64,000 nt of DNA from NCBI GenBank assembly GCA_016872605.1, contig VGZI01000010.1:1-64000 (forward strand), read 5' to 3'. The stretch is from Planctomycetota bacterium. GTDB lineage: Bacteria; Planctomycetota; Planctomycetia; Gemmatales; Gemmataceae. The notes under the pieces are model-generated. The model did not search any database and had not been told where the DNA came from. It was given only the letters and a program-made list of their open reading frames with translations. Below are positions 13,749 to 35,713 of this stretch, piece by piece; the stretch's first letter is position 1; each line of letters opens with the position of its first letter. A program made the position numbers and the translations under genes.

Positions 13749-13776
13749 GCTTGAGCGCCGCCTTCGGAATGATCAC

Positions 13777-16098
13777 GTGAATTTCGCCTTTGGCACCAAG
13801 GGCGAAAGCCTGCTGCGGCTGCAGGGCCGTCTGCAGGCAGCGAGCATTTGCCCCTCGCTTCTTTTTGATGTCGGCGACTGGCGACGCAGATCGAAGCTGA
13901 TCGTGTCGGAGGTGGTAGAGCGTTTCCCGCGAAGCCGCTTGGCGATCCGTTCGAGCGCCCGAGGGGAGGATAGCTGGCAGTCGTCGATGGCCGGCGTTCA
14001 TCTCAGCCTCACCGGCATCGCCGCCCGGCACGACGATGTGGCCGCGGCCATCGAAGAGGTTGTCGCCAGCTATCCCGACGACCACGAACTCCATCAGGTC
14101 CTCGTCCAACCCATGGTCGAGGACGTGGCTGTGTCCGGCGTGGCGTTGACCCGCGATTTGGATACCGGCGCGCCGTACTACGTCGTCAACTATGACGATA
14201 CCAGCGGGCGTACCGATTCCGTCACCGGCGGCGCCGAAAGCAAGACCATCCTGGTACATCGCTCCAGGCCAGATGCCTTGTTGTCGGCACGCTTCCGCAA
14301 ACTCATCGATGTCGTGAAGGAGATCGAAGCGGTCACCGATTGCTCGACATTGGACATCGAATTCTGCATCACCGCACGGGAAGAGGTTTATGTGCTGCAG
14401 GTACGGCCGCTCGCCGCCCGGTCGCGCTGGCAAACGGTCGGAGACGATGCGATCGATACCGCCCTCGACGAAACTCGCGCCGCGCTGGAGCGCTCGTCGG
14501 GCCCCGAAGACGGTGCGCATGGGTTGACGACGGCCTACGGCGAGATGCCGGACTGGAACCCGGCCGAAATGATCGGCTCGACGCCACGCAACCTGGCGCT
14601 CTCGCTGTATCGAAGGCTGATCACGGACGACGTCTGGCTGAAGGCGCGCGTGCTGATGGGGTACCGCGCAATGACGCCACGGCCGCTGCTGACGGCGTTC
14701 GCCGGCCGGCCTTATATCGACGTGCGGCGCAGCCTCAATTCGTTCCTGCCGCCGAATTGCGATTCCGGTTTCGCCGACGACCTCCTCACGTTCCAGCTCG
14801 CCAAACTTCAGGCCAACCGGGATCTGCACGATCGCATTGAATTCGCCATTGCCTACACGTGCCGAACACCCGAATTCGCAGCTTGCGCCGCCGATCTGCG
14901 CGCGGCCGGTTTCGCCGCGGCGCAGGTGAGCCGGTTCGGCGACGGTCTTGGCGCGCTGACCGCGAAAATCCTCGGCCAAGGCCGCCAACAGATCAGCCGG
15001 CTCCTAACTCTCGGCGAAGGACTGGACGAACGCCGACGGGCGGCAAATTCCTTGCCACCCCGCGGGCGGGCCATTCGCCTCCTTGATGACTGCATCGAAC
15101 TAGGCACCCTGCCTTTTGCCCAACTTGCCCGCTATGCCTTCATCGGAATTTCTTTCATTCGTGCGCTCGCCGCCCGCGAGGCGCTGAGCACCGAAGACTG
15201 TGACCGTTTTCTCGAGTCGATCAGTACCGTGGCGACCGAATTCGTGCACGACCTGGCGCTTGTCGCGAACGCTGGCGGCGACCATGCCGCGTTTCTTGCT
15301 CGTTACGGACACCTGCGCCCCGGCACATACGACATTACCTCGTGGCGGTATGACGAGAGACCGGATCTGTATCTGGGCCGCCTTTCCACGCGGATGCCGG
15401 TCAAGAGCGCGTTCACGGCGACCGCACGGCAGCGCAGCGCGATCGAAAAGTTGCTGCGCGAAGAAGGCTTCGCCGTCTCCGCCGAGGAGCTGCTCGGCTA
15501 CGTCACGGCCGCGGTCGTCGCCCGCGAAAAATCGAAATTTCTTTTTTCGCGCAACATCAGCGACGCGCTGAGTGCGCTCGCCGACTGGGGCGACGCGCTC
15601 GGGCTCGATCGCGAAGAGATCGCGCACTTACCGATTGAGGCGATCGCCGCAGGCCTTGATCGCGCTCGAGCCGCCGAGCTCGTCGCCGAGGGTCGTGCCG
15701 CCTATGCAGTTACCCGTGCGGTTCGCCTACCGCATCTCATCTTCGGGCCGCGTGATATCGACGTGGTGCGGCTGCCCCTCGGCCATCCGAATTTCATCAC
15801 GCATCGCACCGTGACGGCGCCCACCTGCCGGCTCGATGCCCGCACCATGCCGGATATCGGCGGCCATATCGTGCTGATCGAAAGCGCCGACCCCGGTTTC
15901 GATTGGATATTCTCGCACCCGATCGCCGGGCTCGTGACCAAGTACGGCGGCGCCAATTCGCACATGGCGATCCGTTGCGCCGAGTTTGCGGTTCCGGCAG
16001 CGATCGGATGCGGCGAGCGGCTATACGACGGACTCGCCAAAGCTGCCATCATCGAACTGGACTGCGCCAGCCACCGGGTCCGGGTCATCCGTTCATGA
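13777..16098 (+). CDS. PEP-synthase-like L-glutamine kinase (Cj1418-type), first step of phosphoramidate synthesis
   Basis: A 773-residue protein starting at GTG 13777; an earlier TTG at 13708 lies deep in the preceding gene. The N-terminal ATP-grasp part begins FAFGTKGESLLRL and has RLAIRSSARGEDSW and YVLQVRPLA. The C-terminal mobile domain has the phospho-histidine H729 in GGANSHMAIRCAEF. This is the architecture of PEP synthase, but in C. jejuni the homologue Cj1418 phosphorylates the amide nitrogen of L-glutamine. The next three genes are homologues of its pathway partners in order, which decides the assignment over a metabolic PEP synthase. ATGA overlap with the next gene. Biochemical function is inferred from synteny. 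Confidence 0.8.
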   Translation: MNFAFGTKGESLLRLQGRLQAASICPSLLFDVGDWRRRSKLIVSEVVERFPRSRLAIRSSARGEDSWQSSMAGVHLSLTGIAARHDDVAAAIEEVVASYPDDHELHQVLVQPMVEDVAVSGVALTRDLDTGAPYYVVNYDDTSGRTDSVTGGAESKTILVHRSRPDALLSARFRKLIDVVKEIEAVTDCSTLDIEFCITAREEVYVLQVRPLAARSRWQTVGDDAIDTALDETRAALERSSGPEDGAHGLTTAYGEMPDWNPAEMIGSTPRNLALSLYRRLITDDVWLKARVLMGYRAMTPRPLLTAFAGRPYIDVRRSLNSFLPPNCDSGFADDLLTFQLAKLQANRDLHDRIEFAIAYTCRTPEFAACAADLRAAGFAAAQVSRFGDGLGALTAKILGQGRQQISRLLTLGEGLDERRRAANSLPPRGRAIRLLDDCIELGTLPFAQLARYAFIGISFIRALAAREALSTEDCDRFLESISTVATEFVHDLALVANAGGDHAAFLARYGHLRPGTYDITSWRYDERPDLYLGRLSTRMPVKSAFTATARQRSAIEKLLREEGFAVSAEELLGYVTAAVVAREKSKFLFSRNISDALSALADWGDALGLDREEIAHLPIEAIAAGLDRARAAELVAEGRAAYAVTRAVRLPHLIFGPRDIDVVRLPLGHPNFITHRTVTAPTCRLDARTMPDIGGHIVLIESADPGFDWIFSHPIAGLVTKYGGANSHMAIRCAEFAVPAAIGCGERLYDGLAKAAIIELDCASHRVRVIRS

Positions 16099-16784: not shown

Positions 16785-17563
16785 AGCAGGCCATCATTCT
16801 GGCAGCCGGTCGCGGCTCCCGGTTGCGGCCGCATACCGACTCCGCCCCCAAATGCCTGCTGCCGTTCGCCGGCCACTGCTTGTTCGACTGGCAACGCTCG
16901 GCACTCGGCGCCAATGGCGTCACCGACATCGGCGTCGTGAGGGGGTATCGGGGAGAGGCTTTCGACAATTCGGGCGTCCGCCTCTGGGACAATCGCGAGT
17001 GGGACCGGTCCAACATGGTGCACAGCCTGTTCTGCGCCCGCGACGCACTGGAGTCGGCCGAAGGCCTCGTGATCGCCTATGGCGACATCATCTATGAGGC
17101 ACGCGTCGTACAGGCGGTGCTCGAAACCTCAGGCGATATCGTCGTCGCGGTCGATCGCAATTGGCTCGACCTGTGGCGGGCAAGGTCCGAGAACCCGCTC
17201 GACGATGCCGAAACGCTACGTATCGATGCTGACGGCCACATCGTCGATATTGGCCGGAAACCAACTTCGCTAGCCGAGATCGAAGCGCAGTACATCGGCC
17301 TCCTTCGGTTGAGTAAAGCCGGCCTGCACCAGCTTTGCGCCTTTTACGATGCAGCCGCGGAAGGCAGCACGTGGATGATGGGACGGCCGCGCATCAACTG
17401 TTACATGACCGATCTGTTGCGCGGCCTGGCCGAGTCGGGTGTCCGGCTAACCGCGGCCCCGTTTGCCGGCGGATGGCTCGAATTCGACACGTCCGACGAT
17501 CTACGGCTGTACGAGGCGATGCTGGCCGAGGGCCGTCTCGACCGGTTTTTCCGGACCGCTTAA
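16781..17563 (+). CDS. sugar-nucleotidyltransferase-like CTP:phosphoglutamine cytidylyltransferase (Cj1416-type)
   Basis: A 260-residue NTP-transferase-fold protein. GTG 16781 overlaps the previous TGA; a GTG three codons upstream (16772) is possible. It has the nucleotide-binding loop IILAAGRGSRLRPHT, then PKCLLPFAG with the conserved lysine, WDRSNMVHSLFCA near 69 and VIAYGDIIYEA near 91 with a metal-binding aspartate. It resembles LicC-like cytidylyltransferases and the C. jejuni enzyme that transfers CMP to phospho-L-glutamine. Its position between the hydrolase and the APS-kinase-like gene matches that pathway. On its own it would be called a generic phosphocholine or sugar cytidylyltransferase. 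Confidence 0.8.
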   Translation: MKQAIILAAGRGSRLRPHTDSAPKCLLPFAGHCLFDWQRSALGANGVTDIGVVRGYRGEAFDNSGVRLWDNREWDRSNMVHSLFCARDALESAEGLVIAYGDIIYEARVVQAVLETSGDIVVAVDRNWLDLWRARSENPLDDAETLRIDADGHIVDIGRKPTSLAEIEAQYIGLLRLSKAGLHQLCAFYDAAAEGSTWMMGRPRINCYMTDLLRGLAESGVRLTAAPFAGGWLEFDTSDDLRLYEAMLAEGRLDRFFRTA

Positions 17564-17567
17564 GACG

Positions 17568-18080
17568 ATGGTCATCTGGCTTATCGGCCTGTCGGGGGCC
17601 GGCAAGACAACGATCGGCGCCGAGTTGGTGCGTCAGCTCCGGCCTCGAATTGCCAACCTCGTCTTCGTCGACGGCGATGCGATCCGTGAAGTATGGGGTG
17701 ACAGTCCCGGGCACGACATCGCCGGGCGCCAGGTGAATGCGGCTCGAGCCTCGCGGCTCTGCGCAATGCTGGACTCGCAGGGCATCCACGCGGTCGCCGC
17801 TATCCTATCGATCTTCCCCGAATGGCAGGCCTGGAACCGGCAGCATTTCTCGAGCTATTTCGAGGTGTTTCTTGACACGCCGATGGACGTGTTGGAGCGG
17901 CGTGATCACAAAGGTCTGTATGCCGCCGCCCGGCGGGGCGAGATGAAAAACGTTGTGGGGGTCGACATACCTTTTCCTCGGCCGCCACGACCTGATCTCG
18001 TACTGGCGCCGCCGGCGGTCCTGGAGCCACCGCACGCTATTGTCGATCGGATTCTGACCCGCTTGCCAGCCATTACATGA
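17568..18080 (+). CDS. APS-kinase-like CDP-amidate 3'-kinase (Cj1415-type)
   Basis: A 170-residue P-loop kinase with Walker A GLSGAGKTT (K13), FVDGDAIREVWG near 35 and the family block RRDHKGLYAAARRGEMKN. NVVGVDIPFPRP follows where true APS kinases have the FTGIDSPYE-type stretch. In C. jejuni the homologue phosphorylates the 3' position of CDP-amidate to give 3'-phosphocytidine-5'-diphosphoramidate. No ATP sulfurylase gene (cysD, cysN or sat) is in the window, so a sulfate-activation role is less likely. It starts 4 nt after the previous stop and overlaps the next gene (ATGA). Confidence 0.82.
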   Translation: MVIWLIGLSGAGKTTIGAELVRQLRPRIANLVFVDGDAIREVWGDSPGHDIAGRQVNAARASRLCAMLDSQGIHAVAAILSIFPEWQAWNRQHFSSYFEVFLDTPMDVLERRDHKGLYAAARRGEMKNVVGVDIPFPRPPRPDLVLAPPAVLEPPHAIVDRILTRLPAIT

Positions 18081-22124: not shown

Positions 22125-22958
22125 TTGATCGTCGTCGTCACCGGGAGCACCGGGTTGCTTGGGCCGTATATCTGCGAGGCGATAGCGGGGCGTCATCGCG
22201 TGGAGGCGATCTCCCGGCATGGCCCGCATCGTTGCGACTTAACCGATCCGGCAGCCACGCGTCGAACCCTCCACGACATCGGCGCGTCAGCCATCGTCCA
22301 TGCCGCCGCCCTCACCGACGTCGACCAATGCGAACGCGACCCGAACGGGGCTGACCGCAGCAACCGGCTCGTGGTGGCGAACGTCGTCGCCGCCTTGGCC
22401 GAGAACGTACGCTGCATCTACATCTCGACCGATCAGGTCTATCCTGACCGAGCCGGTCCGCACCTCGAAGGTGGCGAGGCACCCGTCAACGCCTACGGCC
22501 GAAGCAAGCTGGCCGGGGAGGCCGAAGCCCTCAAGCATCCTGACACGCTCGTGTTGCGTACCAACTTATTCGGACCATCGCGGAGCGTACACCGGCGAAG
22601 CTTGAGCGATTTCGTGGTCGACGGATTGCGCGGTGGAAAACCCATCACCCTGTTCAGGGACTCTCTGTTTTCACCGCTGCATATGGCAACGCTTGCAAGC
22701 CTGATCGCGGAACTTCTCGAGACCGAAGCACGCGGTGTCTTCAACCTTGGATGCCGCGAAGGAACGTCGAAAGCGGAGTTCGGCCTTGCGGTTGCCCGTC
22801 ACCTCGGACTTTCCATCAGCAGCGCGCGCGTCGGCACGTCCGAATCAATACCGGGGCGCGCTCCGCGGCCCCACGACCTGAGGATGGAGAATGGTCGGGC
22901 CGAAGCCCTCCTTGGTCGGGCATTACCGACGCTGGAAGAGGAAATACGCAAGCTATGA
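22125..22958 (+). CDS. RmlD-like sugar reductase (SDR)
   Basis: A 277-residue protein starting at TTG 22125; the cofactor motif VVVTGSTGLLG begins at residue 3, so the start cannot be much later. It has IVHAAALTDVDQCE, CIYISTDQVYPD and active-site YGRSK. Length and blocks match dTDP-4-dehydrorhamnose reductase-like proteins. Lying between PseB and NeuB, it probably reduces a keto group of the nucleotide sugar or acts after PseB in a variant pathway. ATGA overlap with NeuB indicates coupling. Confidence 0.82.
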   Translation: MIVVVTGSTGLLGPYICEAIAGRHRVEAISRHGPHRCDLTDPAATRRTLHDIGASAIVHAAALTDVDQCERDPNGADRSNRLVVANVVAALAENVRCIYISTDQVYPDRAGPHLEGGEAPVNAYGRSKLAGEAEALKHPDTLVLRTNLFGPSRSVHRRSLSDFVVDGLRGGKPITLFRDSLFSPLHMATLASLIAELLETEARGVFNLGCREGTSKAEFGLAVARHLGLSISSARVGTSESIPGRAPRPHDLRMENGRAEALLGRALPTLEEEIRKL

Positions 22959-24025
22959 CGCGGGAGTTGCACATCGGCCGTCATATCATTGGACTAAGTC
23001 GCCCGACTTACATGATTGCCGATATCGCCGCCAATCACGACGGCGATCTCGAGCGCGCCAAGGATCTGGTGTTCCTCTGCGCCGAAGCCGGGGCGAACGC
23101 GGCGAAGTTCCAGAATTTTCGGGCCGAGACCATCGTGTCGGACTATGGCTTCGCGACGATGGGAAGCCGGCAGTCCCACCAGTCGACATGGGGGAAAAGC
23201 GTCTTCGAAGTATACCGGGATGCCTCGATCCCGGTGCACTGGGCCCACACGCTACGCGAGACATGCGATGCGGCCGGCATCGACTATTTCACGGCTCCCT
23301 ACGATCTCGAACTCATTCCAGAATTGTCGCCCTATGTTTGCGCCTGGAAGCTCGGCTCCGGTGACATCACCTGGCATGACAACATCGAACGCCTGGCACG
23401 CGACGGAAAACCGCTGCTAATGGCAACAGGCGCCGCCGAAATCGACGAGGTGCGGATGGCCGTCGACGTAGCGCGGCGGCACACGGACGATATCGTGCTG
23501 ATGCAATGCAACACCAACTACACTGCATCGGTCGAAAACTTTCATCACATTAGCCTGAACGTCCTGAAGACTTATGCGCGGGAGTTCCCGGATCTGATCC
23601 TCGGTCTCTCCGACCACACGCCGGGCCACGCGACGGTGCTTGGCGCTGTCGCGCTCGGCGCCCGCGCGGTTGAGAAGCATTTCACCGACGACCCCGAGCG
23701 TTTCGGCCCGGACCACAAGTTCTCCATGGATCCGGTGAGCTGGCGCGAGATGGTGTTACGGACGCGCGAGTTGGAGGCGGCCCTCGGATCGGAGACCAAG
23801 CGCGTTATGGACAACGAGCAGGAAACCGTAGTGCTGCAGCGCCGCGCGGTGCGGGCGGCGCAGCCAATAAAGGCCGGTGCTGCTATACGGGCCGCGGACT
23901 TGACCGTCCTGCGTCCGTGCCCGCGCGACGCCCTGCCGCCCTACCGCCTCAGCTACGTGATCGGCCGGGTCGCCCGACACGATATTCCATCCGGAGAGTG
24001 CGTCCGCCTGTCCGACCTGCTGTGA
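22955..24025 (+). CDS. neuB: NeuB-family nonulosonic acid synthase
   Basis: A 356-residue protein starting at ATG 22955 in an ATGA overlap. The TIM-barrel part starts MIADIAANHDGDLERA (PEP and metal binding), then KLGSGDITW, LGLSDHTPGH and VEKHFTDD, all NeuB landmarks. The C-terminal SAF (antifreeze-like) domain runs from about 285 to the end. It condenses PEP with a six-carbon amino sugar to give a nine-carbon nonulosonate (sialic, pseudaminic or legionaminic type). It lies beside PseB, but whether the product is pseudaminic acid is not provable here. Confidence 0.92.
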   Translation: MTRELHIGRHIIGLSRPTYMIADIAANHDGDLERAKDLVFLCAEAGANAAKFQNFRAETIVSDYGFATMGSRQSHQSTWGKSVFEVYRDASIPVHWAHTLRETCDAAGIDYFTAPYDLELIPELSPYVCAWKLGSGDITWHDNIERLARDGKPLLMATGAAEIDEVRMAVDVARRHTDDIVLMQCNTNYTASVENFHHISLNVLKTYAREFPDLILGLSDHTPGHATVLGAVALGARAVEKHFTDDPERFGPDHKFSMDPVSWREMVLRTRELEAALGSETKRVMDNEQETVVLQRRAVRAAQPIKAGAAIRAADLTVLRPCPRDALPPYRLSYVIGRVARHDIPSGECVRLSDLL

Positions 24026-24711
24026 ACGTTGCGATCGTCATTCCCGCGCTTAACGAAGCGGCGACCATTGCCCAGGTAGTGCGGTCGGTTTCAGTCCACG
24101 GCAACGCTATCGTCGTCGACGATGGTTCGACCGACGCGACGGGCGATGCCGCACGTGCGGCGGGCGCGAGCGTGGTTCGTCATCCTGAGAACCGGGGTTA
24201 CGATGCAGCGATCGATAGTGGATTCCGGGCGGCGCAAGAGGCCGGCGCCGAGCTCGTCATCACGTTCGATGCCGACGGCCAGCACAGCGCGGCGACGCTG
24301 GCGAAGATGATATCCCTGGCCGAGGCCGGCCAGATCGACATGGTCCTGGGTATTCGCCCGACAGCGGCCCGCTTCGGCGAGCAACTGTTCAACCTCTACG
24401 TACGTCGCCGGTTCGGCGTTGCCGACATTCTCTGTGGGCTCAAAGCTTACCGAATGCATCTATATAGCGCCTATGGTCCGTTCGACCGAGAACGCTCGGT
24501 CGGCACCCGACTCGCGCTCGATGCGTTGCGCGGCGGTGTCAGGACGGCCACGGTGGCTGTGCCGATTACGAACCGTGCGGATCATCCACGGATGGGCACA
24601 AGCCGGCGTGCCAACGCGCGAATCGTCGCTGCACTCGCTCGGGCGATCGGAGCCGATCTTCGTAGTTCTTGGCGGGCCTTGACCGGAAATTCGGCGCGGA
24701 GGGCACCATGA
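24022..24711 (+). CDS. family 2 glycosyltransferase (DPM1-like)
   Basis: A 229-residue GT-A protein starting at GTG 24022 (GTGA overlap with neuB). It has AIVIPALNEAATIAQVV, VVDDGSTDATGDAA and ITFDADGQHSAATL with the DxD-like metal site DADG. It lacks C-terminal membrane helices, unlike GtrB-type enzymes. It resembles polyprenyl-phosphate or nucleotide-sugar GT2 enzymes. It likely builds or primes the glycan; the donor is unknown. Overlaps the next gene (ATGA). Confidence 0.85.
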   Translation: MNVAIVIPALNEAATIAQVVRSVSVHGNAIVVDDGSTDATGDAARAAGASVVRHPENRGYDAAIDSGFRAAQEAGAELVITFDADGQHSAATLAKMISLAEAGQIDMVLGIRPTAARFGEQLFNLYVRRRFGVADILCGLKAYRMHLYSAYGPFDRERSVGTRLALDALRGGVRTATVAVPITNRADHPRMGTSRRANARIVAALARAIGADLRSSWRALTGNSARRAP

Positions 24712-26015
24712 TGCGGCAGGGCCACAACATGCCCCCGGTATACGCACAGTCACTCGAATTGTTGCAACGCGCCGAACGCGCGATTCCCGCCCAGACGCAG
24801 ACGTTCTCCAAGGGCTGGACCCAATATCCGCGCGGCGCAGCACCGGTTTTCGCCGTCCGGGCCGAGGGAGGGCACCTGTGGGACGCTGATGGCAACGAGT
24901 ACATCGACTGGCCGATGGCGCTGGGGCCGCTGCTGCTCGGCCACAACCACCCGGCGGTGAACCTGGCGGTTCGACGTCAACTCGACGATGGCATTGCGTT
25001 TTCCCTCCCAACGAAAGGCGAGCTCGAGCTCGCAGAGCGCCTGATCGAATGGTTTCCGTACGCCGAGCGCGCTCGGTTCGGCAAGAACGGCTCGGACGCC
25101 ACCTCCGGCGCGGTGCGCGCCGCGCGCGCTGCGACGGGCCGCGACATCGTGCTGTGCTGCGGCTACCACGGCTGGCAGGACTGGTTCATCGGCACCACGA
25201 CACGTAACGCCGGCGTCCCGCGGGCCGTGCGCGAACTGACCATCGCCTTTCCGTACAACGACGCCGACCGGCTGGCGCAACTGCTCGAGCAACACCGCGG
25301 CGCCGTCGCCGCCATTATCATGGAGCCGATGGGCCTGATCGAGCCGAAGTCAGGGTATCTGGAGCAAGTGCGGGCGTTGGCGACCGCGCACGGTGCGATC
25401 CTGATTTTCGATGAATGCTGGACCGGATTTCGCATCCACCGACAAGGCGCCTTCGGAAAATTCGGCGTCGCTCCCGATCTCGCCTGCTTCGGCAAGGCAC
25501 TAGGCAACGGCGTGCCGATTTCAGTGATCGTCGGTCGCGCCGCAGTGATGGAGGTGTTCAACGAGATCTTCTTCTCGTTCACCTTCGGCGGCGACATGCT
25601 GGGGATTGCCGCCGCCGGCGCCGTCCTCGACGTTCTGCAGCGCGAGCCGGTGCTCGAGGACGTCGCCGCCATCGGATCCCAACTGGTTGCCGGGATCCAG
25701 AAGCTGATTACGACCCACGAACTTGGCGATCATATCTCGGTAGCGGGCTATTCGGCGCGGCACTTCATCCTTTTCCGCAATGACGGCGCCGACGGCCTGC
25801 TGCTCAAGAGCGTTTTTCAGCAGGAAGCGCTCCGGGGCGGCATCTTGGCTGCAGGTTGGCACGCGCCGTCGTGGGCGCATAACGGTGACGACGTCGATCG
25901 GACGCTCGCGGTATACGACCAAGTGTTTAGCCGCCTCCGCAGCTGGATCAGCCAGGGTCGCCTGGCGGACGCCCTTAAGGGTGATCGCGTCCTGCCGGTG
26001 TTTCGGGCCCCCTAG
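24708..26015 (+). CDS. class III aminotransferase (glutamate-1-semialdehyde aminotransferase-like)
   Basis: A 435-residue PLP enzyme starting at ATG 24708. It has GKNGSDATSGAVRAARAATG for phosphate binding, ILIFDECWTGFR with the cofactor aspartate, and Schiff-base lysine K263 in CFGKALGNGVP. The N-terminal segment around FSKGWTQYPRGAAP matches the GSA-aminotransferase-like proteins often found beside NeuB genes in flagellin and O-antigen nonulosonate clusters. It probably transaminates a chain aldehyde or ketone of the nonulosonate or its precursor. A haem-biosynthetic role is unlikely here. Confidence 0.85.
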   Translation: MMRQGHNMPPVYAQSLELLQRAERAIPAQTQTFSKGWTQYPRGAAPVFAVRAEGGHLWDADGNEYIDWPMALGPLLLGHNHPAVNLAVRRQLDDGIAFSLPTKGELELAERLIEWFPYAERARFGKNGSDATSGAVRAARAATGRDIVLCCGYHGWQDWFIGTTTRNAGVPRAVRELTIAFPYNDADRLAQLLEQHRGAVAAIIMEPMGLIEPKSGYLEQVRALATAHGAILIFDECWTGFRIHRQGAFGKFGVAPDLACFGKALGNGVPISVIVGRAAVMEVFNEIFFSFTFGGDMLGIAAAGAVLDVLQREPVLEDVAAIGSQLVAGIQKLITTHELGDHISVAGYSARHFILFRNDGADGLLLKSVFQQEALRGGILAAGWHAPSWAHNGDDVDRTLAVYDQVFSRLRSWISQGRLADALKGDRVLPVFRAP

Positions 26016-27333: not shown

Positions 27334-28125
27334 GTGCCCGAGGCAGTCCGAGTTTTGGCCAACGAGTGGCGTCAGTGCGGTGTCAAGCAAGGCGACGTGC
27401 TGCTTCTGCACAGCGCAGTCTCCCGAACGCTCCGGCGCCTGGTCCGATACGGCCGGAAGCCGGATGTCAACGACATCTTGGCCTCGTTTATGGCGGCTCT
27501 CGGGGACTCGGGAACCCTGCTATTACCCTTGTTCAATTTCGATTTTTCGGCCGGGGTGCCGTTCGATATCCGCACCACTCCCTCCAAGATGGGAGCGTTG
27601 ACCGAGGCTGGCCGGTTGCACGCTGACGCGGTTCGCACCGGCCATCCGATCTACTCCTTCGCCGCCATCGGCGCGCACGCCGATCAGTTCCGGGGCGTCA
27701 CCAACTACAGTGGGTACGGCGCGGATTCGCCGTTCGGTATCTTGCACCGACTGGGCGGAAGCATCGCGATCCTCGACCTCAGCGAGCAGGAGAGCATGAC
27801 CTTCTACCACTACGTCGAGGAAGCCTTGGACGTGCCTTACCGCTACCACAAGGCGTTCGAGGGCGACTACACCGACGACCAGGGTTGTACCAGCCGTCGT
27901 GCCTTTGGGCTGTTTGTCCGCGATCTCGACCGGGGTATCGAAACTGCAGTCGACCCGATGGGCGAGCGCTTGTGGGAAATGGGCCTGTATACCGGCTGCC
28001 GCCACGGCCAAGGAGCGGGCTTGCGCGTGATCGAGGCGAACGCCGTTTATGATGCTACCGCCGGCGTCATTCGCGCCGGGCAGGCGCACGGATTGCTGTA
28101 TACCACTGAACCCCAATCGAGCTGA
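27334..28125 (+). CDS. AAC(3)-family N-acetyltransferase
   Basis: A 263-residue protein starting at GTG 27334. It has LLLHSAVSRTL, GTLLLPLFNFDF, SKMGALTEAGRLHADA and HPIYSFAAIGAHA, the characteristic blocks of aminoglycoside 3-N-acetyltransferase-like enzymes. Several members act in surface-glycan clusters as sugar N-acyltransferases, and the genomic context argues for that over antibiotic resistance. It probably acylates an amino group of the nonulosonate or its precursor. Family firm; acceptor inferred. Confidence 0.82.
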   Translation: MPEAVRVLANEWRQCGVKQGDVLLLHSAVSRTLRRLVRYGRKPDVNDILASFMAALGDSGTLLLPLFNFDFSAGVPFDIRTTPSKMGALTEAGRLHADAVRTGHPIYSFAAIGAHADQFRGVTNYSGYGADSPFGILHRLGGSIAILDLSEQESMTFYHYVEEALDVPYRYHKAFEGDYTDDQGCTSRRAFGLFVRDLDRGIETAVDPMGERLWEMGLYTGCRHGQGAGLRVIEANAVYDATAGVIRAGQAHGLLYTTEPQSS

Positions 28126-28131
28126 TATCCG

Positions 28132-28854
28132 ATGTCCGCAAAATTCCAACGACTCGACCAACGCTACTTCGACGCCCGAAAGGAGCTCTCGAAACGTGTA
28201 GGCACGCGTGAATTGTGGTCGTTGATCGACCAGTGGCCGCTTTATTGCGGCATCGCCAACCTCGGCCGCTATCTGGCCGTCTCCGATATCCTGCGACAGA
28301 CGCTCGAAGTACCCGGCGACGTAGTTGAGTTCGGCTCCTGGCGTGGGGCCAACCTGATGCTGTTGGCCAAGCTGCTTCGCATCTTCGATCCGCACGGCTG
28401 CAAGAGAGTGCATTGCTTCGATAGCTTCAAGGGCCTCACCGAATTCGCACCCGAAGACGGGCAAGCAACGCAGTTTAGCGGCCTATACAAAGGTGCCCTC
28501 GATGAACTCAAAGCGGTGATCGAGCTCTATGAGCTGCAGGACGAGATCGAAATCCATCAGGGCGTGATCGAGAGCTCGCTGCCGCCGTTCATCGAGGCGC
28601 AGAAGGAGGCCTCGTTCTCCTTCATCTATTGCGATACCGACCTCTACAAATCGACGAAGCTGATCCTGGAGCTGCTGCATCCCCGGTTGAGCAAGCACGG
28701 CGTCTTCGTCTTCGACGAGTGGAACTACAAGGACTATCCAGGTGAAACCGTCGCCGCAAAGGAGTTCCTGGAGACCTACGGCGACAAGTACGAAGTGATG
28801 CACGTGCGCCATGCGCGGCAGCCGACGATGTATCTGCGCAAGCTTAGTTATTGA
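28132..28854 (+). CDS. TylF/MycF-family O-methyltransferase
   Basis: A 240-residue protein starting at ATG 28132. VVEFGSWRGANLMLLAKLL is the SAM motif, VHCFDSFKGL follows, and IYCDTDLYKSTK with VFDEWNYKDYPGE gives the metal-binding acidic residues of macrocin-type sugar O-methyltransferases. It probably O-methylates a sugar of the cluster's glycan. Its TGA overlaps the next ATG. Confidence 0.85.
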   Translation: MSAKFQRLDQRYFDARKELSKRVGTRELWSLIDQWPLYCGIANLGRYLAVSDILRQTLEVPGDVVEFGSWRGANLMLLAKLLRIFDPHGCKRVHCFDSFKGLTEFAPEDGQATQFSGLYKGALDELKAVIELYELQDEIEIHQGVIESSLPPFIEAQKEASFSFIYCDTDLYKSTKLILELLHPRLSKHGVFVFDEWNYKDYPGETVAAKEFLETYGDKYEVMHVRHARQPTMYLRKLSY

Positions 28855-30185
28855 TGATGCATCGGGGTGAGATGATAGCCGCGAGCAGCGATGCCAATTC
28901 GCGCATGCACGACCTGCTGTCGCGCCTGTGGCCGTTGCACCGGACGTTGAACTGCGACGACATGGATCGCGCCCTCGACATGTGCGGGGGTTATCTGTCC
29001 GATCCGCGCTGGACCATTCACCGGTATCCGGTCGGGGCCGACGTTTACACTTGGTACATTCCCGAGCGCTACAAGGTGAAGGAGGCTTGGCTCGAGATCG
29101 GCGGCGAGCGCATCGCCGACTTCGCCTCGAACCCGCTCCATTTGTTGTCGTATTCGCTGCCGCAGCGGATCTCCGGGCGGCTCGGCGATATTCGCAGCCA
29201 CCTGTGGACCAGCAAGTCCCGGCCAAACGCCATCCCCTGGGAGTTCAAGTACTACGAGCGCTCCTGGGGTTTTTGCTTGCGGCACGCCGACCTGGATCGT
29301 TTCGACGACTCGGCGCCGGTGCGCGGCGTCATCGACGTCGAGTTCGGCCGCGAAGATTTCCGCCTGGGTGAGATCTACCTGCCGGGCGAGACCGACCAGG
29401 ATGTCCTGTTCCTGACCAACATCTGCCATCCCCGGCAAGTCAATGACTCGATCGCCGGGCTCGTGGTCGGCCTTGAGATGTGCCGTGCGCTATCCGCCCA
29501 GTCGCGTCGCCGCTACGGTTTCCGCTTGCTAGTGGTGCCCGAGACCATCGGCACGATTGCGTGGTTTGCGCACAACGAGGCGCTTGCCGCGCGCATCAAA
29601 TTTGCGTGGTTTTGTGAAATGGTCGGGCATGACCAGCCGTTCCATCTGCAGCACTCCCGCCAGGCGGATGCACTGATCGACCGTGCGTTCGTGACATTGT
29701 TGCCGGATTTTCGGCGGCATGGCACCGAGCGGCGCGGCGCTTTCCGCGAGGTGGTCGCCAGTGACGAGATGGTGACAAACGGGCCCGGGTTCGACATCCC
29801 AACCCCCTCGCTGACCCGCTGGCCGTACGACGAGTACCACACCAGCGACGACAATCCTGCCATCATACGGCCGGAGAACCTCGGCGAGACGCTCGCGTTC
29901 TTCCTCGCCCTTTGGCGGAATCTCGAAGACAACTACTATCCGCGCCGTACCTTCAAAGGGCCCGTCATGCTGTCGAGGTTCAGCCTTTGGGTCGACTGGC
30001 GCGAGGATCGGGCGCTCAATCTAGCGACCGAGAAGATCATGCAAAGCCTGGAAGGCGATCGCTCGGTGATCGACATCGCCTTCGATCTGAAACTGCCGCT
30101 GCAGACCATCCGGCGTTATCTCGATCGCTTCCACGAGGCGGGACTCATCGAGAAGTCGTCAACACCATGGCCCGCTACGCGCTAG
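28854..30185 (+). CDS. DUF4910 aminopeptidase-like protein with C-terminal winged helix
   Basis: A 443-residue protein. ATG 28854 overlaps the upstream stop (TGATG), with other ATGs nearby at 28857 and 28872. M28-like metal ligands are visible: NICHPRQVNDSIAG (H and D), VVPETIGT (E) and DEYHTSDDN (H). The last 60 residues form a winged-helix-like segment (SVIDIAFDLKLPLQTIRRYLDR). The family recurs in polysaccharide and nonulosonate clusters, but its substrate is not established to my knowledge. It could deacylate or hydrolyse an amide of a glycan intermediate. Confidence 0.75.
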   Translation: MMHRGEMIAASSDANSRMHDLLSRLWPLHRTLNCDDMDRALDMCGGYLSDPRWTIHRYPVGADVYTWYIPERYKVKEAWLEIGGERIADFASNPLHLLSYSLPQRISGRLGDIRSHLWTSKSRPNAIPWEFKYYERSWGFCLRHADLDRFDDSAPVRGVIDVEFGREDFRLGEIYLPGETDQDVLFLTNICHPRQVNDSIAGLVVGLEMCRALSAQSRRRYGFRLLVVPETIGTIAWFAHNEALAARIKFAWFCEMVGHDQPFHLQHSRQADALIDRAFVTLLPDFRRHGTERRGAFREVVASDEMVTNGPGFDIPTPSLTRWPYDEYHTSDDNPAIIRPENLGETLAFFLALWRNLEDNYYPRRTFKGPVMLSRFSLWVDWREDRALNLATEKIMQSLEGDRSVIDIAFDLKLPLQTIRRYLDRFHEAGLIEKSSTPWPATR

Positions 30186-30201: not shown

Positions 30202-31653
30202 ATGTTTGCCGCTTCGCCTTTCCTAGGCTCCATCGTCGACGCCCAGAGCGGACGCGAGTGGAGCGCCCAGGCGCTTCGTTCGGCCGTGGCCGCGCGGACG
30301 GCGGCGTTGGTCAACGCCGGTCTCGGGCGCGACGCGCGGCTTGCCCTCTACCATGGCGGAAGTGCCGCGTTTTTTGCCGACCTCTTCGCCGTATGGGAGA
30401 TCGGCGCCTGCGCGGTGTGCCTGAATCCCGGTTTGACACCGGAGGAACTCGCCAATGTGAGCGCATTTATCGAACCGGCGGCGATCCTTGTTGGCTCCAA
30501 CTCGGCAATGGGACTCCCCCCAGGCACACGCAGCTTCTGCCTTGCAGAAGAGAGAGGCGGGCCCCGTCGCACCGCGGGCAGCCAAGGCGCTCGGCTCGAC
30601 GATCCGGCGCTGATGCTGCTCACCTCGGGCACCACCGGCACACCTAAGCTTGTGGTGCACAGCTTCCGTTCGATCCTTTCCCGCGTCGCCCTCAACGCAT
30701 TGTTTATCGGCCGCGCTGATCTGGCACGGACGCTGTGCGTCCTACCCACCCATTTCGGGCACGGGCTCATCGGCAACTGCCTGACGCCGCTGCTGGCCGG
30801 ACAGACCCTGGTGCTGGCCGGCGGCGATGGGTTGAGCGCAGCCCGTGACGTATCGCGCTTGATCGACCAGTACGCGGTGACGTTCTTGAGTTCGGTTCCT
30901 GCCTTTTGGAAGCTCGCGACGCGGATAGCCGGGTCCCCTACGGCGGGAACGCTCAAGCGGGTACATATGGGTTCGGCCCCGCTTTCGAGTGATCTCTGGC
31001 ACCAGGTGATCGAGTGGAGCAGAACCCGCAACGTCGTCAACATGTACGGAATCACCGAAACCGCGAACTGGGTGGCAGGCGCTTCCGCACTCGACCGCGA
31101 GCCGCAGGATGGCGCCATCGGTACCCCATGGGGCGGGTGGACGGCGGTCCGCCGTGAGGATGGCACCATCGCGGCCCATGGCGACGGCGAGTTGGTCGTG
31201 CAGGGTCCAAGCGTGATGAGCGGTTACTTCCGCCGGGCGGATTTGACCGAGGCCGTGCTCGCGGACGGATGGTACCGGACCGGCGACAGCGGCCACATCG
31301 ACGAGAGTGGATACGCCTATCTTACTGGCAGGCGAAAATTCGAGATCAACCGTGCCGGCATCAAGGTGCAACCTGAAGACATCGACCTTCTGATCGAACG
31401 GCATGATTCGGTGCGCGAGGCATGTGCCTTCGGGATGCCCGACAAAGTGGCCGGCGAAACCGTCGCGGTCGCCGTGTGTCCGAACGAGAGGGCGACATTC
31501 GACATCGAGACGCTGAAAAAATGGTGCAGCGAGCGCCTTACACGCGAAAAATTGCCGGCACGCTGGTTCGTCGTCGACGAGATCCCGAAGACGGACCGCG
31601 GCAAGATCAACCGCGACGTCGTCGCCCGGCACTGCCTCTCGCTCCCCAACTAG
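30202..31653 (+). CDS. AMP-dependent acyl/aminoacyl ligase
   Basis: A 483-residue adenylate-forming enzyme starting at ATG 30202. It has the P-loop-like core LLTSGTTGTPK near 139, MYGITETANWV near 281, GWYRTGDSGHID and the C-terminal hinge with PKTDRGKINR containing the adenylation lysine. With the acyl carrier protein and the GNAT encoded just downstream, it probably activates a carboxylic acid and loads it on the carrier for transfer to an amino sugar. The acid is unknown. Confidence 0.87.
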   Translation: MFAASPFLGSIVDAQSGREWSAQALRSAVAARTAALVNAGLGRDARLALYHGGSAAFFADLFAVWEIGACAVCLNPGLTPEELANVSAFIEPAAILVGSNSAMGLPPGTRSFCLAEERGGPRRTAGSQGARLDDPALMLLTSGTTGTPKLVVHSFRSILSRVALNALFIGRADLARTLCVLPTHFGHGLIGNCLTPLLAGQTLVLAGGDGLSAARDVSRLIDQYAVTFLSSVPAFWKLATRIAGSPTAGTLKRVHMGSAPLSSDLWHQVIEWSRTRNVVNMYGITETANWVAGASALDREPQDGAIGTPWGGWTAVRREDGTIAAHGDGELVVQGPSVMSGYFRRADLTEAVLADGWYRTGDSGHIDESGYAYLTGRRKFEINRAGIKVQPEDIDLLIERHDSVREACAFGMPDKVAGETVAVAVCPNERATFDIETLKKWCSERLTREKLPARWFVVDEIPKTDRGKINRDVVARHCLSLPN

Positions 31654-31660
31654 CTCTTCC

Positions 31661-32230
31661 GTGGGCGCCCACGTTCCCGGCACACCGGTCCGGCTCGAAA
31701 CCGACCGCTTCATCATCCGCTCGATGACGACCGACGATGTCGGCGAACACTATCTCGCGTGGTTGCACGATCCCGAGGTCACCCGTTTTCTGCAGGTCGG
31801 GATCGATCCGCCCGATCTCGCGCAATTGCGCGACTACGTCGCCGGCCACGACAATCGCACCAGTTACTTGCTGGGCATCTTCACCCGATCCGGGCAGCAC
31901 ATCGGCAACCAGCGGGCCCGGATCATGCCGCATCATCGCGTCGCCAACTTGAGCGTCATGATCGGCGAAAAGGAGTACTGGGGCCGGCAGGTCGTACTCG
32001 AATGCCGGGCACGCGTGCTCGACTTTTTGCTGCGCGATCTCGATCTGCACAAGGTGCAGGGCGGTTGCACATCGGACAACCGCGCGGCGATCTTCAACTA
32101 CAAACGACAAGGCTGGCGCGAGGACGGCATTCACCGGGAGCAGTATGTGAGCGCGGGCAACAGGGTCGATCTGATCTACTTCGCTATGTTCCGGCGCGAC
32201 TGGACCGCGAGGAGCGACGGTGCGCGCTGA
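31661..32230 (+). CDS. GNAT acyltransferase (RimJ/RimL type)
   Basis: A 189-residue protein starting at GTG 31661, 7 nt after the ligase stop. It has RLETDRFIIRSMTTDD at the N-terminus, LSVMIGEKEYWGRQVVLE as the CoA or pantetheine binding segment, and GCTSDNRAAIFNYKRQGW. It lies between the AMP-ligase and the acyl carrier protein genes, so it may use an acyl-ACP donor instead of acetyl-CoA, to N-acylate the nonulosonate precursor (PseH or LegH position). Its last 11 bases overlap the ACP gene. Confidence 0.77.
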   Translation: MGAHVPGTPVRLETDRFIIRSMTTDDVGEHYLAWLHDPEVTRFLQVGIDPPDLAQLRDYVAGHDNRTSYLLGIFTRSGQHIGNQRARIMPHHRVANLSVMIGEKEYWGRQVVLECRARVLDFLLRDLDLHKVQGGCTSDNRAAIFNYKRQGWREDGIHREQYVSAGNRVDLIYFAMFRRDWTARSDGAR

Positions 32231-32456
32231 AGAGATTCTGGCGAGCGCTTTGGCGGTGCCGATCGAATCGGTACCGGGTGACGCGTCGATTGCCACGTTC
32301 GAACCATGGGATAGCCTCGGCCACGTCGCGGTGATCGAGACACTTGAAGCTGCGATCGGCCGTAAACTCGACGCCAATGAGGTGTTGACGATCGTCGACG
32401 TGGCGACAATTCGCTCCGCCCTCGAGCGAGGCAGCTCGGCGAAAGCGGTACGATGA
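32220..32456 (+). CDS. acyl carrier protein
   Basis: A 78-residue acidic helical protein starting at GTG 32220. EPWDSLGHVAVIE contains the phosphopantetheine-attachment serine S32 in the classic DSL context. It is separate from fatty-acid synthesis genes and is flanked by an AMP-ligase, a GNAT and a GT-B-like protein, so it is a dedicated carrier for glycan acylation. It overlaps both neighbours. Confidence 0.88.
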   Translation: MRAEEILASALAVPIESVPGDASIATFEPWDSLGHVAVIETLEAAIGRKLDANEVLTIVDVATIRSALERGSSAKAVR

Positions 32457-34048
32457 TGCTAGCGGTTCCGTTCGATGCGGCCATGGCAGCGAGCGAGGGA
32501 GTTCGCAATATCAGGATCGCTTGGCCGATCTCTCCCACGTTCGTATCCGATGCATACCGCGCCACGCTCGCACGGTTTCTGATTTTGGTTAGCGACCTTT
32601 CTAACGACCGGCGCGACGTTGCCTACCTCGGCGGGGCCGCGCTCGGAGTCATCGCTGTCGAGATGCTGGAAGCTGCGCTTTGCGTGCAGCATGGCGATGC
32701 GCGCGGTATAGCTCCTTATGGCAACAGTCCGTTGCTCGCCTATTTCGGTACAAAAAAAGACAGTTCTCCCGAGCAATTGCCGTTCACAACCGTCAAACCA
32801 GGACCGGTCTCCGCGCCTCGGATTCCGGCGCTGACCTCGCTTCGCGTCACCGCGCAATGGGAGTCTCCCGCCCGACTCATCCGAACAGTCTTCGGCGACG
32901 GGCCTGCGGTTATCAGCCTCAACGATCTGGTCCGCGAAACGATTCAACTGCGGCCCGCCCGCTACGTGTATCGCGATGCGGGAGGCATCCTCGCGCGCGG
33001 GCGTAGAGGCGCGTCCTCGAAAACCGACATCGAGCCGGAGCTGGCCGCAGCAGTGGCGGGTGCTTTGGCCGACAGCCCGGCCCTCGATGAGCTTCGGCGC
33101 CGCAGGCTGCGCGCCGCGCTCCTGCCGCTTGCGGAGAAGTTCATGGCCCGGGCCTCGACCGACCTTCACGCGCTGTCGTCACTTCCGCGTTTACCGAAAG
33201 AAATTCTTTCTGGTACTGGTGCCAAGTATGCGAGTCGCGCGGTCGGCTTGGCTTCCCTGCGGCGTGGCGGCAATGTCTTCCGTTGCGCCCATTCCGTGAC
33301 CCTCGGCCTTCTCCACGCACCAGAACTCGCCGCGGCGTCCGAACTTTGCGTCAGCTCGTCGTTCATCATGGCGACACCGCGGCTCGCCGGTGCCCTGGAG
33401 CGCAGCAAGGCGCCCAACCTCCTGCCATCCGGTCGCCGGGTGGAAATACACGGACTAGCGGGTGATCCCAAGATACGGAAATTGCCCCTTTTACGCCGCA
33501 GACGGCCGGCTTCGCGGCCGACCGTCGTCTACGCGCCGACGATGATCCGGGCTGTGGCCCGGCACGCGTTCTCGACGCTCGCCCCGATCGTCTATCTGGA
33601 CTGGCAGCTCCGCCTCGCCCGCAAGCTCAGCCGCCTGCCGTTGCGGCTGATCTGCAAGCCGCATCCCGAAGGTGTGTTCCAGGACAAACGACATCCGCTC
33701 GAGGACATCGCCGAGACTGTTTATGTACCCTTCGAGCAGGTGATCGAGAGCGCCGACATCTTCGTCTTCGACCGCCCGATCAGCACCACCTTCGGCGAGG
33801 CCCTCTGCACCGATCGACCCATCGTTTATGTCGACCTGGGACCGCCAGACTTCACCGCTGAGGTCAAGCCTCTCATAGACCGACGTTGCCGCGTGATTAC
33901 TGCCACGTACGGCGGTGACAACGTGCCCCAGGTGGATGAGGGACAACTCGCTGATGCCTTCCGGGATCTGCATGACACCGTCGAGCCTCTCGATTTTGCG
34001 GACATGATCATCGGGAACTCGAACCGTTCGGCTGTTCGGGCGAACTAG
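32453..34048 (+). CDS. GT-B-like protein, possible nonulosonate or polyol-phosphate transferase
   Basis: A 531-residue protein starting at ATG 32453 in an ATGA overlap with the ACP gene. The C-terminal half has TVVYAPTMIRAV, LRLICKPHPEGVF near 400 and SADIFVFDRPISTTFGEALC near 437, patterns seen in CDP-glycerol glycerophosphotransferase and capsule-synthesis GT-B enzymes (CMP or CDP donors). I do not recognise the N-terminal half. It may transfer the CMP-activated nonulosonate made by this cluster. Confidence in the gene is high, in the function low. Confidence 0.55.
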   Translation: MMLAVPFDAAMAASEGVRNIRIAWPISPTFVSDAYRATLARFLILVSDLSNDRRDVAYLGGAALGVIAVEMLEAALCVQHGDARGIAPYGNSPLLAYFGTKKDSSPEQLPFTTVKPGPVSAPRIPALTSLRVTAQWESPARLIRTVFGDGPAVISLNDLVRETIQLRPARYVYRDAGGILARGRRGASSKTDIEPELAAAVAGALADSPALDELRRRRLRAALLPLAEKFMARASTDLHALSSLPRLPKEILSGTGAKYASRAVGLASLRRGGNVFRCAHSVTLGLLHAPELAAASELCVSSSFIMATPRLAGALERSKAPNLLPSGRRVEIHGLAGDPKIRKLPLLRRRRPASRPTVVYAPTMIRAVARHAFSTLAPIVYLDWQLRLARKLSRLPLRLICKPHPEGVFQDKRHPLEDIAETVYVPFEQVIESADIFVFDRPISTTFGEALCTDRPIVYVDLGPPDFTAEVKPLIDRRCRVITATYGGDNVPQVDEGQLADAFRDLHDTVEPLDFADMIIGNSNRSAVRAN

Positions 34049-34049
34049 A

Positions 34050-34931
34050 ATGCCCAAGCTGGCCCTTGGCACCGTGCAGTTCGGCCTGGATTACGGGATT
34101 TCGAACCCGCGCGGGCGCGTGCCTTTGGACGAGGTGCGCCGGATACTTGACACCGCGGAGTCCGGCGGCATCAAAGTCGTGGATACGGCTGCGGACTATG
34201 GCGAGTGCGAGTCCGTGCTCGGACAGTGCCTGCCGGCATCGCTTTCGGTCATCACCAAGACCGGGCGATTTGCGGAGCCGGAGCTGACGGAGGCGTCTAT
34301 CACCGCTTTCCGCGCACGGGTGGCCGAGTCGCTGGCACGGCTGCGTCGCGATCGGCTGTACGGGCTGCTCGTGCACTACTGCGAGGACCTCGTCAAACCC
34401 GGGGGCGCCCGGCTGTTCGCAGCATTAGAGGAACTGAAGGCCGATCGTGTCGTCGAGCGCGTTGGAATCTCCGCATACCGCCGCGATCAGATCGAGCCGC
34501 TCATGGAGCGTTACCGCGTCGACCTCGTGCAGGCGCCCCTCAACGTGCTCGACCAGCGTCTCACGGGTAGCAACTTCCTGCGGACATTGAAATCTGCCGG
34601 CGTCGAAGTGCATGTTCGTTCGGTGTTTCTGCAAGGCCTGTTGTTCCTCGATCCGGACGAGGTGCGCCCCTATTTCGCGCCGATCCGCCCGCTGCTGCGG
34701 GCTTACCACGATGCGCTGCGGCGCCGCGGCCTGACCCCCGTCGAAGGGGCGCTGGCGTTCGTCAGGAGTTGCGCCGAGGTCGACTACGTCGTTGTCGGCA
34801 CCACGGGCGCAGCCGAGCTATCCGAAGTGCTGGGCGCCTGGAACTCGACGCGCGGCAGCGATTTCGATTTCGCGCCGTTCGCCGTCGCCGAGGATGCCAT
34901 GGTCAATCCCTCACGCTGGGCGCACGTTTGA
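34050..34931 (+). CDS. aldo/keto reductase
   Basis: A 293-residue TIM-barrel reductase starting at ATG 34050. The catalytic tetrad is visible: D and Y in VVDTAADYGECES, K in SVITKTGRF and H in YGLLVHYCED. The length is usual for the family. Such reductases are frequent beside SpsF-like and NeuB genes in nonulosonate clusters. It likely reduces a carbonyl in the sugar pathway using NADPH. It overlaps the next gene (TTGA). Confidence 0.87.
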   Translation: MPKLALGTVQFGLDYGISNPRGRVPLDEVRRILDTAESGGIKVVDTAADYGECESVLGQCLPASLSVITKTGRFAEPELTEASITAFRARVAESLARLRRDRLYGLLVHYCEDLVKPGGARLFAALEELKADRVVERVGISAYRRDQIEPLMERYRVDLVQAPLNVLDQRLTGSNFLRTLKSAGVEVHVRSVFLQGLLFLDPDEVRPYFAPIRPLLRAYHDALRRRGLTPVEGALAFVRSCAEVDYVVVGTTGAAELSEVLGAWNSTRGSDFDFAPFAVAEDAMVNPSRWAHV

Positions 34932-35713
34932 TCCTCGCCATCATCCAGGCCCGGTTTTCCTCGACCCGATTGCCGGGCAAGGTCTTGTTGCCGCTCCTCG
35001 GCGAGCCGATGCTGCTTCGGCAGGCCGAGCGGGTCCGGCGCGCCCTGTTGATCGACCAGCTCGTGGTCGCCACCAGCACCGACCGCTCGGACGACGCGGT
35101 CGCCGAAGCCTGTGCCAGCCGTTCGATAGCATGTGGCCGCGGCAGCCTCGACGATGTCCTCGACCGTTTCCTGCACGTGGCCAAGGGCTATCCTGCCGAC
35201 TACATCGTCCGTTTGACCGGCGACTGCCCGCTGTCGGACCCGGCAATCATCGACTCGGTGATCGCGTTCACTGTCGGCGGCAACTACGACTACGGCAGCA
35301 ACACGCTGCAGCCGACCTTTCCTGACGGCCTCGACGTAGAGGTTTTCCGGACCGAGGCGCTGGCCACTGCCAGCCGCGAGGCTCAGCTCCCTTCCGAGCG
35401 CGAGCATGTCACGCCGTTTCTATACAAATCGGGACAGTTTCGCATCGGCAACTTTACCAACGACGTGGATCTTTCCAGCCATCGCTGGACGGTGGACGAA
35501 CCCGCCGACTTCGAACTCGTGGCCAGCATCTTCGAGGCTCTCTATCCCTCCAAAAGAGATTTCGGCTGGCATGACGTCCTGGCACTGCTCGAGCGCATGC
35601 CCGATCTCGCCAAGATCAACGCCGGCTTCGCACGCAATGAAGGCTACGCCAAGAGCCTGCGCGCCGATGTCGCGTACTTGCGCGGTCGTTCGAACGACCG
35701 AATTTCCCGATGA
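34928..35713 (+). CDS. SpsF-like cytidylyltransferase (CMP-sugar synthetase), copy 3
   Basis: A 261-residue protein starting at TTG 34928; the motif ILAIIQARFSSTRLPGKVLL begins at residue 2, which fixes the start. It has VRLTGDCPLSDP near 97 with the metal-binding aspartate and HRWTVDEPADFELV near 184. It is the paralogue closest in position to neuB, so it is the best candidate for CMP activation of the nonulosonate. ATGA overlap with the ABC transporter gene links activation and export. Confidence 0.8.
   Translation: MILAIIQARFSSTRLPGKVLLPLLGEPMLLRQAERVRRALLIDQLVVATSTDRSDDAVAEACASRSIACGRGSLDDVLDRFLHVAKGYPADYIVRLTGDCPLSDPAIIDSVIAFTVGGNYDYGSNTLQPTFPDGLDVEVFRTEALATASREAQLPSEREHVTPFLYKSGQFRIGNFTNDVDLSSHRWTVDEPADFELVASIFEALYPSKRDFGWHDVLALLERMPDLAKINAGFARNEGYAKSLRADVAYLRGRSNDRISR

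Follow-up and report, generated by a model that had tools for sequence, protein, structure and literature searches.

A conserved ligase, GNAT, and acyl carrier protein trio in a planctomycete nonulosonate locus: a putative CoA-independent N-acylation module

The window analyzed here is a 64,000-nucleotide stretch of a Planctomycetota bacterium genome (GenBank assembly GCA_016872605.1, contig VGZI01000010.1). The 16S sequence of this genome matches the targets of the PLA46 and EUB338-II probes exactly, which identifies the host as a planctomycete. On its forward strand, three open reading frames (ORFs) follow one another closely: an AMP-forming acid ligase of the ANL superfamily (positions 30202 to 31653; 483 aa; PF00501, E = 6.4e-55; PF13193, E = 3.2e-12), a GNAT-fold N-acyltransferase (31661 to 32230; 189 aa; PF13302, E = 4.7e-16 and 60.2 bits against a cutoff of 25.4), and a dedicated acyl carrier protein (ACP) (32220 to 32456; 78 aa). 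The ligase carries the A5 (YGITETANW) and A10 (PKTDRGK, with the catalytic lysine) motifs of ANL enzymes, and Ser32 of the ACP lies within a WDSLGH motif (Ser codon at 32313 to 32315). Sixteen nucleotides separate the end of the preceding gene from the ligase, a 7-nt gap separates the ligase from the GNAT gene, the GNAT and ACP genes overlap by 11 nt, and the ACP stop overlaps the start of the following gene (ATG at 32453) by 4 nt; ORF starts in the window were set by rule and are thus predicted, and the gap and overlap values depend on them. The initial annotation had described a ligase, a GNAT, and a carrier protein packed near NeuB, and the three ORFs bear this out.

The trio is embedded in a string of sugar genes, all of those below on the forward strand. 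A NeuB-family synthase (22751 to 24025; PF03102, E = 5.4e-63; 66% identical to the NeuB of locus L038) lies about 6 kb upstream of the trio, followed by a class III, glutamate-1-semialdehyde-aminomutase-like aminotransferase (24669 to 26015; PF00202, E = 1.4e-53) that is common to loci L038 and L039. Downstream is an SpsF/cytidylyltransferase-like protein (34769 to 35713; labeled by eye), with tblastn matches at 40% identity in L039 and 52% in L038. Directly before the ligase is a DUF4910/DUF2172 peptidase-like protein (28851 to 30185; PF16254, E = 6.8e-56; PF09940, E = 5.6e-20; Protein Data Bank [PDB] entry 3k9t, a putative peptidase, E = 6.7e-48). None of the other 15 ligase loci, L038 included, contained a match to this gene, which appears to be a local accessory. 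PseB- and NeuB-like genes, SpsF, and the aminotransferase surround the trio in the window, L038, and L039. The L038 locus is closely syntenic with the window, sharing PseB, RmlD, NeuB, GT2, aldo/keto reductase, SpsF, a 531-aa protein, the trio, the aminotransferase, and ABC genes.

The 531-aa protein (32453 to 34048, forward strand) follows the ACP gene and has no assigned family. It had no Pfam match and no PDB sequence match, and by eye it is possibly a glycosyltransferase. Relatives occur just before the ligase in genomes G498 and G493, and in G504 a relative lies about 1 kb from NeuB; the protein may be a nonulosonate transferase. We rejected it as a general partner of the module, as relatives (E ≤ 1e-6) were found in only 2 of 15 ligase genomes and in 1 of 22 others.

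The carrier scored 14.2 bits against the Pfam PP-binding model (PF00550), below the cutoff of 20.8, as did its relative in locus L015 (18.5 bits). Its AlphaFold model (pLDDT 88.4) has four helices, with Ser32 opening helix II, and is confidently that of an ACP. A Foldseek search with the model ranked acyl carrier proteins first (best E = 1.1e-3; none of 337 matches at E ≤ 0.001). They also topped the VIA fold list with a Z score of 11.2, a value that, as the tool itself remarks, helical bundles may attain by chance. The serine of the WDS motif was present in all 15 carriers compared, the window carrier among them. The host genome has six PP-binding places, five of them above the cutoff, and the window ACP lies outside all six; tblastn similarity between them was weak everywhere (best E = 0.029, to L005). 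The initial annotation had named the housekeeping ACP as the identity that would count against a dedicated unit. This identity was ruled out, as the AcpP-like protein of the genome (GADSLDIVE, locus L001) is encoded on another contig and is not close to the window ACP. One phosphopantetheinyl transferase, of the ACPS family, is encoded in the host genome. Another small ACP-like protein, with the motif GWDSLTQ, is also present (L071, contig C8, 9798 to 10055); no ligase was recognized by eye within 20 kb of it.

Next, we considered how widely the trio occurs. When a strict limit was set (E = 1e-75 or 1e-80), a sample of 392 genomes from the host phylum yielded the ligase once, in the host itself, and no match was detected in the other 391 planctomycetes. 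The result was the same in the host order (1 of 102 genomes, again the host), where up to 15 candidates were scored per genome. Around G493, the genome of L015 and a Rhodospirillaceae record (an alphaproteobacterial relative), 13 of 385 genomes of the class carried the ligase, as did 2 of 15 of the order and 3 of 398 of the phylum; these samples overlap, and each includes G493. In the host-phylum search and two of the searches around G493, no more than four first-look candidates were scored for each genome, so that a lower-ranked ligase would escape them. The combined yield was 15 ligase loci outside the window, with ligases 40 to 55% identical to that of the window. The window ligase had no resolved position in the ligase tree.

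Ligase, GNAT, and ACP genes were adjacent in 12 of these 15 loci, giving 13 trios with the window. This recurrence indicates a real module, and the packing noted in the initial annotation is therefore beyond chance. Intergenic distances in 12 trios (the window and 11 others) ranged from an 11-nt overlap to a 26-nt gap, and in L053 the order differed (ligase-ACP-GNAT). In L057, neither a GNAT nor an ACP was found within 12 kb of the ligase, and L062 and L063 had an ACP but no module GNAT. Among the matches listed, the neighbors of the trio varied between most loci, those of L059 to L061 being mutually alike; the trio thus seems to be retained for its own sake. Outside L038 and L039, the trios had no further sugar genes of the window type except for occasional ABC or AMP-ligase matches. 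Searches of plasmids gave no match to the ligase (limit of 1e-60) or the GNAT (limit of 1e-8), and among viral contigs, 231 stretches fit a peptide pattern but none was a relative. The GC content of the window (0.61) resembles that of other stretches of the host genome (0.59 to 0.62) and so gives no sign of recent transfer.

We consider it fairly probable, if well short of certain, that the trio is a self-contained carrier-protein N-acylation module. In the proposed route, the ligase would adenylate a small carboxylic acid lacking a free alpha-amino group and would attach it to the phosphopantetheine arm carried by Ser32 of the dedicated ACP. With this ACP, and not acetyl-CoA, as the direct donor, the GNAT would then pass the acyl group to an amine, which in the window locus is most likely that of a NeuB-pathway amino sugar. 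Sequence or structure modeling shows the three genes, the fold of the ACP, the recurrent association, and the lack of CoA signatures in the ligase and GNAT, whereas loading of the ACP, transfer from it, the class of cargo, and the acceptor are inferences.

The best-surviving alternative keeps the same ligase-ACP-GNAT chemistry and places the acyl group on some other amine (of a sugar, lipid, peptide, or small metabolite), with the window locus merely hosting a portable module. We regard this as unlikely but deserving of weight. A NeuB match turned up in 5 of the 14 genomes carrying the ligase, compared with 17 of 22 others (G924 was left out, 13 of the 22 other genomes come from one order, and genome completeness was not stated). 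With no NeuB match in the remaining nine ligase genomes, NeuB is ruled out as an obligate partner, the module does not follow NeuB as part of an obligate nonulosonic acid pathway would, and it is therefore not specific to nonulosonic acids. Moreover, 10 of the 13 trios (the window counted) had no NeuB match in the 13 to 20 kb examined, and three loci (L059 to L061) have an ATP-grasp-like gene immediately upstream of the trio. Against this alternative, the missing NeuB may be an assembly gap in some of these genomes, which come without completeness figures, and in the window, L038, and L039, the trio sits within the sugar gene string and shares SpsF, the aminotransferase, and the 531-aa neighbor. 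The amino-sugar target proposed in the initial annotation thus fits the window and two relatives, which have the trio in NeuB/PseB loci, but does not extend to the ligase genomes in which NeuB was not found. The ATP-grasp-like genes (L059, 8070 to 9233; L060, 8074 to 9258; L061, on the reversed strand) were called above the Pfam cutoff in L059, below it in L060, and from blastp clustering alone in L061. They suggest an amide- or peptide-like product at those loci.

The proposed use of an ACP in place of CoA is backed by two independent signs in the sequences, the first of them in the GNAT. Canonical CoA-using GNATs have a pyrophosphate loop of the form Q/RxxGxG/A. In the window GNAT, this loop is replaced by WGRQVVLECR, and the consensus of the module GNATs is WGxxVVxExR or WGxxIVxExR. 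A valine at the Gly/Ala position, together with an arginine four residues on, was present in all 13 module GNATs and in none of 27 others; an earlier, smaller comparison covered 12 module GNATs and 20 others. The first loop glycine was retained in 4 of the 13 compared with 25 of the 27. The comparison set is a nonrandom sample, composed of other GNATs of the window, relatives found by similarity, and two GNATs encoded away from the ligase (in L062 and L063), and picked mostly by similarity to the window GNAT. The GNAT of L015 is 44 to 45% identical to that of the window. As the structure model of the GNAT was poor (pLDDT 52.7), the loop argument is drawn from sequence only. A literature search combining GNAT, P-loop, and acyl-ACP gave no match. 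A second GNAT of the window (13203 to 13748) has the loop WGRNYGSEA and lacks only the first glycine.

The loop also bears on the possibility that an ordinary acetyl-CoA-dependent GNAT N-acetylates the sugar while an unrelated ligase-ACP pair makes something else. In loci L008 and L009, from the same phylum, a GNAT with the canonical CoA loop adjoins SpsF and aminotransferase genes, so that simple acetylation seems to be the norm at loci of this kind, and the module GNATs still hit general acetyltransferase models. We nevertheless find this possibility improbable, given that the canonical loop is missing from every module GNAT and that 12 of 15 loci have the GNAT alongside the ligase and ACP. 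By comparison with the canonical GNATs of L008 and L009, the module GNAT may take the place of simple N-acetylation at the window locus.

The ligase likewise lacks a CoA signature. In 4-chlorobenzoyl-CoA ligase (CBAL), Phe473 accommodates the CoA adenine, according to section 3.4 of PMC10455477. A phmmer match to this enzyme placed query position 472 opposite chain position 496; if the alignment is ungapped, its end points would make Glu449 of the window ligase the equivalent of Phe473. In a motif alignment with E. coli controls, the position was Glu in 14 and Asp in 2 of the 16 module ligases and thus acidic throughout. The CoA ligases, in contrast, had an aromatic residue there, namely, Tyr in FadD and Phe in CaiC and MenE by alignment and Phe in AAE3 and Tyr in FadD13 by phmmer. 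An unrelated AMP ligase in one of the loci (OUT_L053) had Tyr, and the AMP ligases OUT_L059 to OUT_L061 aligned too poorly to be judged and stand outside the comparison. EntE and EntF of E. coli adenylate their substrates and pass them to a carrier protein, as we propose for the window ligase, although these substrates are an aryl acid or serine. EntF has His at the adenine position, but EntE keeps Phe, unlike the Glu or Asp of the module, so the acidic residue is no proof of carrier use. Because both the GNAT and the ligase lack a CoA-binding signature, a route from acid to acyl-AMP to ACP to amine without CoA is favored. The suggestion of a dedicated mini thiotemplate unit, in which the carrier replaces CoA, is thereby supported, if indirectly, by a nonhousekeeping ACP and by two enzymes whose motifs lack that signature.

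The A4 motif narrows the choice of cargo. In adenylation domains of the nonribosomal peptide synthetase (NRPS) type, an A4 aspartate binds the alpha-amine, and the EntF control reads SFDVS. The module ligases read THFGHG (14 of 16), SHFGHG (1 of 16), or LHFGHG (1 of 16), with no acidic residue in any of them, which makes an alpha-amino acid unlikely; of the hydroxy or amino acids put forward in the initial annotation, an alpha-amino acid thus finds no support. An NRPS-like path, in which the ligase would charge the ACP with an amino acid and the GNAT would act on the aminoacyl-ACP, is very improbable. In its favor, the ligase does match the amino acid adenylation model TIGR01733, although at 169.7 bits, below the curated cutoff of 317.4. 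Against it, the acidic A4 residue of EntF is missing, and the solved chains ranked first by phmmer were oxalyl-CoA synthetases (top), the fatty acyl ligase FadD13, the succinylbenzoyl ligase MenE, and malonyl ligases.

In L062 (11137 to 12285) and L063 (10628 to 11699), the ACP is fused to or lies beside an enzyme of the PEP-mutase/isocitrate lyase family, with a KxCGH motif recognized by eye. The closest relatives of this lyase are petal death protein, carboxyphosphonate phosphorylmutase, methylisocitrate lyase, and dimethylmalate lyase. Together with the phmmer ranking, it gives a loose hint of a small hydroxy, keto, or dicarboxylic acid as the possible cargo.

The general ligase-carrier-GNAT chemistry is already established in altemicidin biosynthesis, as described in the consulted sections of PMC6331615. 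There, SbzL loads a free ACP (SbzG or SbzK) and the GNAT SbzI moves 2-sulfamoylacetate to an amine in vitro, and SbzB plus SbzC gave no product when CoA replaced the carrier. By description, the Sbz system resembles the window trio in that the adenylating enzyme stands alone, the ACP is free, and a GNAT serves as the N-acyltransferase, but it belongs to a Streptomyces antibiotic cluster and not to a glycan locus. In Vibrio cholerae O1, RfbL (WbeL), with CoA or the carrier RfbK, has been proposed to activate 2,4-dihydroxybutanoate, and the acid ends as the N-acyl group (tetronate) on the amino sugar perosamine (PMC12208996, PMC3441752). Here too a ligase and a carrier are proposed for amino-sugar N-acylation, although the choice between CoA and carrier is left open and, in the sections consulted, no GNAT of the window type is named. 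Group II flagellin glycosylation islands of Aeromonas have an ACP and an AMP-dependent synthetase amid pseudaminic acid genes (PMC7874193). They differ from the window in an additional ACP-reductase, luxE, and luxC, and the consulted parts of that paper describe neither a ligase-GNAT-ACP trio nor a tested function.

The peptidase-like gene upstream of the ligase also has a possible counterpart, Cj1295 of Campylobacter jejuni, which we take to be a DUF2172 member. Cj1295 is needed for di-O-methylglyceroyl pseudaminic acid and has been proposed, in the parts of PMC3068675 consulted, to remove the N5 acetyl group. It would thus deacetylate a nonulosonic acid before N5 receives di-O-methylglycerate, as the DUF4910/DUF2172 gene of the window might, but the term "acyl carrier" is absent from the text of that paper. 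By this analogy, the window protein is possibly a sugar N-deacylase, and a deacylate-then-reacylate scheme at the locus is reasonable but unproven.

Among the matches listed, and as far as the sources were seen, the open literature describes no ligase-GNAT-ACP unit in a nonulosonate locus. What seems new is a conserved ligase-GNAT-ACP trio that jointly lacks CoA signatures, its spread, and its location in a planctomycete nonulosonate locus. More tentatively, the trio could be an undescribed portable cassette in which GNAT and ligase have both lost CoA recognition. Such a cassette, thinly distributed in Alphaproteobacteria, would have reached a planctomycete and would place different small acids (keto or oxalyl-like in the lyase-linked branch of L062 and L063) onto different amines, with nonulosonic acids as the acceptors here. 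If the carrier-dependent reading is true, the valine and arginine of the GNAT loop, the acidic ligase residue, and the WDS carrier make up a small and testable genetic signature. It would mark surface sugars or other amines bearing non-acetyl acyl groups, so that unusual N-acyl groups could be predicted from genome sequences, and the trio itself would offer a compact set of tools for forming amides without CoA.

The sugar locus also holds a PPDK_N/PEP-utilizer protein (13708 to 16098) and an APS-kinase-like protein (17463 to 18080). An aminoglycoside 3-N-acetyltransferase-like gene (27334 to 28125) is followed by a TylF-type methyltransferase gene (28132 to 28854); the products of these two genes may both act on one sugar or acyl group.
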